Source: an uncultured Victivallaceae bacterium
GTDB taxonomy: Bacteria > Verrucomicrobiota > Lentisphaeria > Victivallales > Victivallaceae
Direction: 5' to 3'
DNA length: 64,000 nucleotides
Assembly: GCA_944392655.1 (NCBI GenBank)
Contig: CALXXL010000003.1
Coordinates: 124,001 to 188,000 of the forward strand
Positions 57,161 to 60,310 of this stretch are shown one piece after another; within the stretch, counting starts at the first letter, position 1; the number at the start of each line of letters is the position of its first letter. The notes under the pieces are model-generated. The model saw only the letters and a program-made list of their open reading frames with translations, made no database searches and had not been told where the DNA came from. Position numbers and translations under genes: made by a program.

Positions 57161-57250
57161 ATGGTAGGCAAAGGCAGTGCCCGTCGTCCGGGAGATGAAA
57201 AGAAGTACCGTGAAAACTGGGAAAAAATTTTCGGACATAAGACGAAGTAA
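57161..57250 (+). CDS. 29-residue basic protein, unknown function
   Basis: ATG is preceded at an ideal distance by TAAGGAGGTG, close to a full Shine-Dalgarno. The product is VGKGSARRPGDEKKY followed by RENWEKIFGHKTK. It has promoter-like sequence before it and a terminator after it, so it is an isolated unit. I recall similar short frames with the pattern GKGSxxRP ... IFG in phage genomes; this was not checked. High predicted expression makes it probably a real gene. Confidence 0.65.
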   Translation: MVGKGSARRPGDEKKYRENWEKIFGHKTK

Positions 57251-57312: not shown

Positions 57313-57381
57313 TTGAACATTTGCTTTTCATAAAAAAAGAACTATTATAAGTTCAATATAGACAATATGAAGGGATGATAT

Positions 57382-57540
57382 ATGAAAAAGATAAAGTACC
57401 GTATGCCTTCGCTGTTGCCATTTGAAGGATGGGAAACATTGGCTGCCGCTTACGAGGGGGAAAGTTTTCTGCCTCCTGATCCTGGTTGTTTTCTGCCGGG
57501 GTTGGAAAGCGACTGTGAGGAAACCGGAGCGATCGCTTAA
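57382..57540 (+). CDS. 52-residue peptide, candidate RiPP precursor
   Basis: A small frame 18 bases upstream of a radical SAM/SPASM gene, with AAGGGATG before the ATG. The N-terminus is basic (MKKIKYRMPSLLP), then EGWETLAAAYEG, and the C-terminal part is Pro/Gly-rich with two Cys and acidic residues (FLPPDPGCFLPGLESDCEE). Leader then core layout and the neighbouring enzyme suggest a ribosomally made, modified peptide. No known precursor family was recognised, and the assignment is inference from context. Confidence 0.55.
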   Translation: MKKIKYRMPSLLPFEGWETLAAAYEGESFLPPDPGCFLPGLESDCEETGAIA

Positions 57541-57558
57541 TATTGAGCGTGCGTAATT

Positions 57559-58671
57559 ATGCTTCTGCATCAGCTTGCTGCTCCGGCGAAGATCTATATA
57601 GACATCACGGCGAAGTGTAATTTACGTTGCATATATTGTTATCATTTTGACAGTCCATCGGCGGTACTGAAAGATTGCAGTACGGCTGAATGGACTTCTT
57701 TTATTGAAGAAGCCTCCCGTGCCGGGGTAATGAGTTTCAACATTTCCGGAGGGGAAGCGCTTCTGCGTCCTGATTTATTTGAAATCCTGGAGACAATTGG
57801 CCGCAACCGTATCCGTTACGAGCTGGTGACCAACGGGCTGCTGCTGACGGCGGATCATGCGGCGAAGCTGGCGGCCGGCCGGCGTTGTGATTTTGTACAG
57901 ATTTCTCTGGATGGACCGGAAGCAGTGCATGATGCGGCGCGTGGTCGTGGCAGTTATGCCGGTGCGGTGCGTGCGATCAATCACCTGCGGGAACATGGAG
58001 TTCCGGTTCGGATAAGAGCGACCATAGGCAAGCACAATCTTGGGGTGCTGGAAGAGACTGCGTCGCTGTTTTTTGATGAACTTGGTTTAAAATCCTTCAC
58101 CACCAATTGCGTAGCGATAGAGGGTCTGTGCCACAAGGAGGCGCGGAATCTGGAATTATCGCTGGACGATCTATTATATTCCATTGAAGAGCACCGCAGG
58201 GTGCTTGAGCGTTATCCGGGGCGACTATTGAGTTCGACAGGACCCTGGGGATTATATTTGAAGTGGCGTGCGCTATATCAGGCCTGGAAATCGAAGAGCA
58301 GCCGTGGCTGTTATGCTGGACATCTTGGTGGTTGCGGAGCGGTATTCAAGCAGATGGGAGTACGGGCAGATGGAGTGATGGTGCCCTGCGTACAGCTGCC
58401 TGAGTATGAGATGGGGCGGATAAATGAGACGCCATTGCTTGAAGCGTGGAATACCAGTTTAAATATGGTGCGGATCCGCCGCCGCCGGGAAGTGGAATTG
58501 AGTATTTTCCCTGAGTGCCGAGATTGTGAATATATGGGCTATTGTTTTGGTGGCTGTCCTGCGAACAGTGCGGTAGACGAACATGATAGAGGGAAAAAGG
58601 TGTGTAAATTCTGTTTAAAGGACATTGCAAACCACCTTGGTTCTGCCGAACTCAAACATTTTCTCGCCTGA
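57559..58671 (+). CDS. radical SAM/SPASM-domain protein
   Basis: A 370-residue enzyme that splits S-adenosylmethionine to a radical. The 4Fe-4S motif CNLRCIYC (CxxxCxxC) starts at residue 20, with NISGGEALLRPDLFEI and DFVQISLDGPEAVHD behind it. The C-terminal SPASM domain shows C-x7-GGC, DGVMVPCVQLPEYEMG, and CRDCEYMGYCFGGC (C-x2-C-x5-C-x3-C), then a last CKFC, for auxiliary clusters. No RRE domain is visible. Such enzymes commonly modify peptides; the 52-residue peptide is the likely substrate. Cofactor maturation (PqqE-like or AhbD-like) is an alternative. Confidence 0.85.
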   Translation: MLLHQLAAPAKIYIDITAKCNLRCIYCYHFDSPSAVLKDCSTAEWTSFIEEASRAGVMSFNISGGEALLRPDLFEILETIGRNRIRYELVTNGLLLTADHAAKLAAGRRCDFVQISLDGPEAVHDAARGRGSYAGAVRAINHLREHGVPVRIRATIGKHNLGVLEETASLFFDELGLKSFTTNCVAIEGLCHKEARNLELSLDDLLYSIEEHRRVLERYPGRLLSSTGPWGLYLKWRALYQAWKSKSSRGCYAGHLGGCGAVFKQMGVRADGVMVPCVQLPEYEMGRINETPLLEAWNTSLNMVRIRRRREVELSIFPECRDCEYMGYCFGGCPANSAVDEHDRGKKVCKFCLKDIANHLGSAELKHFLA

Positions 58672-58800: not shown

Positions 58801-59109
58801 ATGACTAAAACAGAAAATAAAAGCTATTTACAATGTATTATCCTTGCTTATATGTGTAAATATAAATTAATCGAGAAGCAAACTGAGCAGAAATTAGGCG
58901 TTTGTGATACAGCGTTAACCACATAGCCAATCTACTATGGACTGGCATTACATGTAAAAAAAGCAGCAAGAATCAAATTTATTTATGCTGAAACGTTGCC
59001 GGAAATCACTCATGGCAACCATAGTAAATCCGCTATTCATAAAGGCTATAATAAAATACAAAACAATCTGAATAATGTTTTACTTATAAGACAAAGCCAA
59101 ACATCATGA
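58801..59109 (+). pseudogene. decayed small gene with in-frame TAG
   Basis: A single frame of 102 codons is broken by TAG at codon 42 (58924-58926) and otherwise open to TGA at 59107. AAGG lies before the ATG. The first part (LIEKQTEQKLGVCDTALTT) looks like a helix-turn-helix, the second is basic (LALHVKKAARIKF). It is much more AT-rich than the housekeeping genes. It fits a degraded regulator or mobile-element gene. No family was recognised. Confidence 0.4.
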
Positions 59110-59235
59110 CCAGGTATATGTCGGAATTAATCTCTACCACGATTGCTGATAGATATAAATTTCTATGCAAAAACAGGTTTTATAAATAATTGATTAGTTT
59201 GAACTAAAATTATATAATAGGAAAGCAAAGGAATA

Positions 59236-60069
59236 ATGAAAACTAGTTGTCCATGTTGCGGAGAGATCTATTACGATATACCTGATAAGTGGTTAGGTCA
59301 AAAAGCCCGTTGTGAACATTGCGGCAAAGAGTTTACCGTTCAGATCTATTATCCACCGCCACCCGAACCGGTAAAACCGGAGTTTTTTATAGAGGTGACC
59401 TGTCCTATTTGCAAAAATAAATTTGATGTATCCGAATCATCTATAGGAAAATCGTATACCTGTCCAAAATGCGGCAACAATTTCCTCTCTTTCTGTGAAA
59501 TACCCCAAAATGTGGTTTCATTTACTTGTACCTATTGTCACAAACAACAAACAATTCCCAAAGAAAAAGCCTCGCGTAATAATGGTGGAATTATTAGTTG
59601 TGCATATTGTAAAGAAATATATTCAGGTAATAAGTTCTCTTTAATCAAAATTCCTTTAAAACCTTCCAGATCATCTAAACGGACCTCTCAACCTGCAACT
59701 ACACATTCTGTAAATCATCAATCTGTGCCGTCTCCGTCTGGTTCCATCTCCTATTCACGCGATCCGGGAATATATATTCTACTTGCTCTCTTGTTTGGTG
59801 GCCTTGGCGCGCACAATCTTTACGCAAAGGAAAATAGCAAGTTTGTATTTAAGTTAATAATGAGTGGTTTGACTCTCGTTTGCTCTATTGCGGCAATAGC
59901 TAATCAGCCTTCGGTGGAATATAACAGATATACCTATTCTGTAACCACTCATACGCCTGGGGCCTATCCTATTTGTATGTTTTTTATTTTCCTGTGCGCT
60001 GTAATAAATCTCATTGCGATTTTCGCCGACATTATAAACGCCGATGCAAACTGCAAAGGTCATTTATGA
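59236..60069 (+). CDS. zinc-ribbon and TM2-domain membrane protein
   Basis: A 277-residue protein. The N-terminal half has four CxxC-pair modules (CPCCGEIYYD ... CEHCGKEF; CPICKNKF ... CPKCGNNF; CTYCHKQQ; CAYCKEIY), of the MJ0042-type zinc ribbon. A Ser/Thr-rich linker leads to two membrane segments with a TM2-type layout (YILLALLFGGLGAHNLYAKE and a later LVCSIAAIA / FFIFLCAVINLIAIFA). This pairing is common in PVC bacteria. The function is unknown. Confidence 0.75.
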   Translation: MKTSCPCCGEIYYDIPDKWLGQKARCEHCGKEFTVQIYYPPPPEPVKPEFFIEVTCPICKNKFDVSESSIGKSYTCPKCGNNFLSFCEIPQNVVSFTCTYCHKQQTIPKEKASRNNGGIISCAYCKEIYSGNKFSLIKIPLKPSRSSKRTSQPATTHSVNHQSVPSPSGSISYSRDPGIYILLALLFGGLGAHNLYAKENSKFVFKLIMSGLTLVCSIAAIANQPSVEYNRYTYSVTTHTPGAYPICMFFIFLCAVINLIAIFADIINADANCKGHL

Positions 60070-60310
60070 AATATCTTATTTACGCGGGGATTCCGAAACG
60101 CGCCCCATTCAGCGAAGGGAAATGCCTATCGATATGCATCTGAAATACTGTCGCCGCTATATTGGCTGATAGGAAAAACTGCCAGGCCACACATCGTTAA
60201 GAAATTACATCCGAAAACGCCTGTCTTCAATCATTTTAAATATGAATAATAGATAACAAATTATTCTTAACAGAAGTATTATCGGCGGAAGTTCGGCTAA
60301 TTGTGATAAA

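Follow-up and report, generated by a model that had tools for sequence, protein, structure and literature searches.

A conserved small peptide gene beside an ScmE-like radical SAM/SPASM enzyme forms a probable minimal RiPP pair in Victivallaceae

Results

In this study, we analysed a 64,000-nt stretch of DNA (the window; contig CALXXL010000003.1, positions 124,001 to 188,000) from assembly GCA_944392655.1 of an uncultured Victivallaceae bacterium. Reading of its open reading frames revealed a 52-aa ORF at 57382–57540 (stop codon included) and, after a gap of 18 nt, a 370-aa ORF at 57559–58671; these genes and all their features described below lie on the forward strand. A ribosome-binding-site-like sequence, AAGGGATG, can be read at 57370–57377, upstream of the ATG of the smaller gene. 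The encoded peptide, MKKIKYRMPSLLPFEGWETLAAAYEGESFLPPDPGCFLPGLESDCEETGAIA, begins with a putative leader of residues 1–28 (57382–57465), which carries Y6-x-x-P9-x-L11 and a G-E-S motif at its end, as recognized from alignments of 9 and 19 precursors. We infer that the leader/core boundary lies after residue 28; the predicted core, residues 29–52 (FLPPDPGCFLPGLESDCEETGAIA, 57466–57537), contains Cys36 and Cys45, and its assignment draws on identity with a related genome and on covariation of Cys with the enzyme. A 29-aa ORF (MVGKGSARRPGDEKKYRENWEKIFGHKTK) lies upstream of the pair at 57161–57250 and has a 50% identical match in an uncultured phage record. Downstream, the region 58801–60300 is sparse in long ORFs, and 59236–60069 encodes a 277-aa protein that has zinc-ribbon-like CxxC repeats and, towards its C-terminus, hydrophobic stretches.

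The same order of 29-aa ORF, peptide and enzyme is found in Victivallaceae bacterium STD2_119 (G001), a second species of the genus, in which the 29-aa counterpart (L033) is located about 330 nt 5′ of the enzyme gene. The syntenic peptide of G001 is 51 aa long and 58% identical to that of the window, and a 12-residue core stretch, PPDPGCFLPGLE, is unchanged between the two. Base changes between the two peptide genes fall at codon positions one, two and three in the proportion 15/11/35, favouring the third position, and 21 of the 50 codons carry synonymous changes. A profile built from the first eight peptides matched, in this genome, the window peptide and four others (E values 3e-18 to 4e-11), two of these four being absent from the profile. 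At the level of sequence, these data confirm that the 52-aa ORF is more than a chance ORF and mark the two genes as a genuine, if predicted, precursor–maturase pair. An earlier note on this DNA had proposed that the small gene and the SPASM enzyme are substrate and enzyme, and had set beforehand that loss of the peptide in close relatives would speak against this. The proposal is supported, given that the peptide stays beside the enzyme in G001 and at further loci, as expected of a RiPP system with a conserved precursor next to its maturase.

The 370-aa protein matches the radical SAM (PF04055, 1.4e-21) and SPASM (PF13186, 5.2e-10) domains and has all ten expected cluster cysteines. Three form the CxxxCxxC of the radical SAM cluster (C20, C24 and C27; 57616–57639), which is invariant in the enzyme alignment, and seven, also invariant, lie in the SPASM region of the auxiliary Fe–S clusters (C259, C277, C320, C323, C329, C333 and C352; 58333–58614). 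Only 19 residues precede the CxxxCxxC, and the enzyme therefore has no recognition domain of its own. Its best NCBIfam match is ScmE (TIGR04250) with 327.3 bits, below the curated cut-off of 400 bits, and the runner-up scores 111; other ScmE-like genes show similar family scores. The models for AhbD (100.7 bits, cut-off 500), PqqE (93.9 bits, cut-off 381) and PapB (89 bits, cut-off 340) were all below threshold. An AlphaFold model (mean pLDDT 88.5) has, among its best solved Foldseek neighbours, anSME, SkfB, CteB, SuiB and PqqE; SkfB and CteB are thioether synthases, and EpeE is a further structural neighbour. A maximum-likelihood tree unites the ScmE proteins of full cassettes in one clade (support 99/99). 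The window enzyme falls outside it, as sister to its G001 ortholog (100/100); several orphan branches are long, so that their order in the tree is unsure.

In total, 37 precursors were gathered by profiles, hand-read loci and one regular-expression pass. They are marked by a Y-x-x-P-x-[LI] leader, after which G-x-[S/T] almost always follows. Across the 19 aligned precursors, Y, P and G do not vary, every sequence has G-x-[S/T], and W, F or Y is common in the leader-proximal part; a few precursors found later deviate slightly from the G-x-[S/T] spacing of these 19. Paralogous precursor–enzyme pairs occur on contigs C6 and C1 of this genome and in G001 (contig C2), G019, G059 and G033. Apart from G033, the peptides upstream of these ScmE-like genes are 36–48 aa long with the same leader, the layout being Y-x-K-P-x-[LI], an aromatic pair, G-x-[S/T] and a Pro/Gly/Asp-rich tail with Cys. 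A first family profile revealed further copies elsewhere in the order, and the matches of a later profile run against 388 genomes of the phylum were confined to 12 Victivallaceae genomes of five genera.

Other members of the family vary in their cysteines. Two precursors of this genome (C3:62658, L061 4659–4772; C9, L148 9773–9889) lack a core Cys and end in PGDQPW[SA], one lying immediately 5′ of an ScmC–ScmD pair and the other immediately 3′ of a giant protein gene (see below); they constitute a second precursor subtype. In G027 (C5, L154) and G040 (C19, L155), tandem three-Cys precursors (S-C-Y-[IV]-D-C … I-C-P/A) lie 3′ of a giant gene, with the maturation genes on a different contig.

The earlier note had also looked to conservation of the C-terminal cysteines, and this holds for the enzyme-linked precursors: a core Cys is present in 11/11 precursors with an adjacent ScmE-like gene. 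Across all loci, 24 of 29 in ScmE-bearing genomes have a core Cys versus 0 of 8 in ScmE-less genomes (Fisher p 3e-5), counts that are not phylogenetically independent and come from incomplete MAGs. G019 and G033 hold both Cys and Cys-less precursors, and every enzyme-adjacent copy has Cys. Precursors with Cys and no adjacent enzyme were found on C2 of this genome and C1 of G033. An acidic residue occurs at +5 or +6 of Cys in 20 of 23 cases versus 14.2 expected (p 0.005, shuffling), and the excess is not significant in a reduced subset of 13 precursors (p 0.11). PapB joins Cys to Asp/Glu across 0–6 residues (PMC9413430); since the excess was not upheld in the subset, a PapB-like Cys–Asp/Glu link is no more than a lead.

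Three PqqD-family genes, i.e. candidate recognition elements of the kind a RiPP system needs, are present in this genome. The one on C10, on the reverse strand at L059:5005–5274, adjoins a 603-aa ABC exporter, and its best specific model is ScmD (78.8 bits, cut-off 100); those on C14 and C3 (63 kb) each lie 3′ of an HprK-like gene as ScmC–ScmD pairs, the HprK-like gene on C3 scoring 59.3 bits with the ScmC model (cut-off 125). C4 carries a C39-peptidase ABC and HlyD pair. This arrangement fits the expectation of the earlier note that recognition and export would be provided by unlinked genes: PqqD/ScmD with an ABC exporter on C10, ScmC–ScmD on C3 and C14, and C39-ABC with HlyD on C4. Among 137 genomes of the order, ScmD is present in 13/13 genomes with a precursor versus 33/124 others (p 2e-7). 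In relatives the parts are joined: operons on C3 and C4 of G033 combine giant, precursor, ScmE, ScmC and ScmD, and one on C23 of G027 contains C39-ABC, HlyD, ScmD, a 201-aa protein, ScmE and ScmC. By eye, this 201-aa protein appears to resemble S26 peptidases. On C13 of G001 (L134 6376–7357), an ScmE-like gene broken by a frame change lies 4.4 kb from a giant–precursor pair.

Of the 37 precursors, 21 have a giant repetitive protein encoded directly upstream, on the same strand and mostly at a distance of 8–91 nt. The giants are roughly 500–3200 aa long and homologous to one another; they gave no significant Pfam match, matches on the repeats being insignificant, and inspection by eye revealed no obvious N-terminal signal peptide. 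In the four genomes searched there are 2 to about 16 giants per genome, which excludes chance placement; the binomial p is about 1e-32 at a 1% background, for related loci that are not independent. The remaining 16 of 37 loci, that of the window among them, gave no giant directly upstream, although some of them lie close to a contig end or hold the second precursor of a tandem. In the window, the unit takes a minimal, giant-less form; as with the C6 copy, the giant was lost or never present. Giant-then-YxxPxL-precursor arrangements with SCM-type genes, the radical SAM enzyme being present or absent, were seen in G033 (C3, L044 5484–14000) at L050, L046, L130, L132 and L139, and in this genome at L145, L148 and L150. 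On C1 of this genome (L032 1856–11903), the giant–precursor–enzyme unit is tandemly duplicated; the second copy keeps the precursor with one residue changed, and the ORF after it consists of the enzyme start only.

Discussion

The nearest known system is the SynChlorMet (SCM) cassette, defined by NCBIfam models TIGR04248–TIGR04252 for the ScmA precursor, ScmC, ScmD, ScmE and ScmF. Full cassettes occur in the same order, in Desulfobacterales, in Aminicenantes and in others, with ScmE above its cut-off where tested or with consecutive ScmD–ScmE–ScmF; their precursors have a KYxKPxL leader and Cys-rich cores of repeated CxxGxxA, and some are picked up weakly by the ScmA model. The window enzyme is nearest to ScmE, ScmD- and ScmC-like genes are present in the genome, and a YxKPxL-type leader and core Cys are common to both precursor sets. 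However, ScmE, ScmD and ScmC of this genome all score below the model cut-offs, ScmF was not found in the genome (the sole cross-match, 95 bits, is the ScmE-like gene itself) and the window peptide matched no NCBIfam model, ScmA included. Moreover, the precursor carries one or two core Cys where those of the cassettes have many CxxGxxA repeats, and the genes are scattered here and tied to giant proteins in relatives. A full cassette was thus excluded on the missing ScmF, the low scores and the unlinked ScmC and ScmD. The pair is filed near SynChlorMet but falls outside its models, its related kind being known yet uncharacterized. Our literature search found no mention of SynChlorMet, nor of ScmE alongside radical SAM and RiPP. 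The earlier note had called the locus a candidate for an undescribed system; this stands for the Victivallaceae precursor–enzyme family, which is previously unremarked, but not for the broader type, as NCBIfam already has the related SynChlorMet models.

Lasso peptides share the YxxPxL leader, and the ScmD-like proteins also match lasso PqqD models (discrete B1/E-type RRE). Nevertheless, the lasso B2 leader peptidase (PF13471) had no match in this genome, a radical SAM enzyme stands in its place, and a lasso peptide was dismissed. With ranthipeptides and sactipeptides (PapB, CteB, SkfB, AlbA), the pair has in common a SPASM maturase and a precursor with core Cys; it differs in that the enzyme has no fused RRE and scores far below the PapB cut-off, and in that the thioether here is inferred.

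Taken together, the window pair is quite probably a minimal RiPP system, in which PqqD-type leader recognition, modification of core Cys by the ScmE-like enzyme, most likely to a thioether, and unlinked export would be combined. The small gene would encode a precursor with a YxxPxL leader. Lasso RREs have been characterized as recognizing the sequence YxxP, while PqqD and the sactipeptide RRE StsC cluster together with RREs whose motifs, W/Y/LxxP/L/I, are related (PMC12710340). On this basis, ScmD is the likely binder of the leader. A discrete PqqD-type protein encoded elsewhere, most likely the ScmD-like one on C10, may thus bind the leader and present the peptide to the adjacently encoded enzyme. 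The enzyme would then modify the C-terminal core at Cys, with one or two intramolecular thioether cross-links as the most likely outcome. Processing and export of the product might fall to ABC exporters encoded elsewhere, on C10 or, as the C39-peptidase ABC with HlyD, on C4.

Since core Cys tracks the presence of ScmE, Cys is the likely target of the enzyme; the Cys precursors without an adjacent enzyme count against this explanation. SPASM maturases are well known to convert Cys to thioethers, and by this analogy the enzyme probably forms a Cys thioether in the core. SPASM enzymes are, however, chemically diverse, and the structural neighbours include SuiB (C–C), EpeE (an epimerase) and PqqE. 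The pair could therefore be a RiPP pair with another modification, such as a C–C cross-link at a leader-proximal Trp/Phe, as the frequent W/F/Y near the leader might suggest, an epimerization or a decarboxylation. We consider this unlikely, given that the aromatic position persists in several precursors that lack both Cys and ScmE, whereas it is the core Cys that follows ScmE. That the enzyme instead serves cofactor synthesis or protein maturation, as radical SAM enzymes of the AhbD, PqqE or anSME type do, and that the peptide is incidental, is highly improbable: anSME ranks first by fold in the structure search, but ScmE scores 327 bits against at most 111 for other families, the enzyme is repeatedly linked to the peptide family and the canonical ScmE clade sits beside the ScmE-like enzymes of this kind in the tree. 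An AhbD/PqqE-type cofactor enzyme, one of the two outcomes that the earlier note had set as refuting its proposal, was dismissed on the family scores (101 and 94 bits). Kinase-like genes of the ScmC type are also present in the family at large, so the Cys chemistry may not be the sole modification. Precursors without ScmE often retain ScmC and ScmD (G024, G028), and a second, kinase-type modification may accordingly exist. HprK-like kinases accompany lasso systems too, and HPr-like kinases phosphorylate a C-terminal Ser of lasso precursors (PMC7533575).

The giants are probably secreted, and the position of many precursors behind them suggests a cell-surface function of the product. It is possible, if somewhat doubtful, that the peptide serves chiefly as a modified accessory of the giants, helping their secretion or acting as their anchor or cap, rather than as a released RiPP; the window copy would then act in trans. 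The 21 precursors 3′ of a giant gene, the common operons of giants, precursors, ScmC and ScmD, the apparent want of signal peptides on the giants, and the HlyD/ABC export genes that accompany maturation genes in relatives are consistent with such a role. On the other hand, the association is one of gene proximity only, 16 loci including the window show no giant directly upstream, and many giants have no detected precursor alongside. As a tentative extension, the RiPP-type machinery of Victivallaceae (leader-bearing peptide, radical SAM or kinase-like maturases, PqqD, HlyD/C39-ABC) might work specifically for giant secreted repeat proteins, with the cross-linked peptide made and exported together with a giant surface protein as its anchor, cap or cargo. 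The minimal RiPP pair is still our preferred reading of the locus.

In summary, the uncharacterized ScmE family gains a putative substrate that is small and amenable to testing, its one or two Cys contrasting with the repetitive Cys-rich cassette precursors. The RiPP parts are scattered over the genome, and cluster-based mining would consequently miss such a system. The link to giant proteins is more surprising than the window pair itself and lies outside the window; if it is functional, peptide cross-linking would contribute to the construction or loading of the cell surface in some Gram-negative bacteria.
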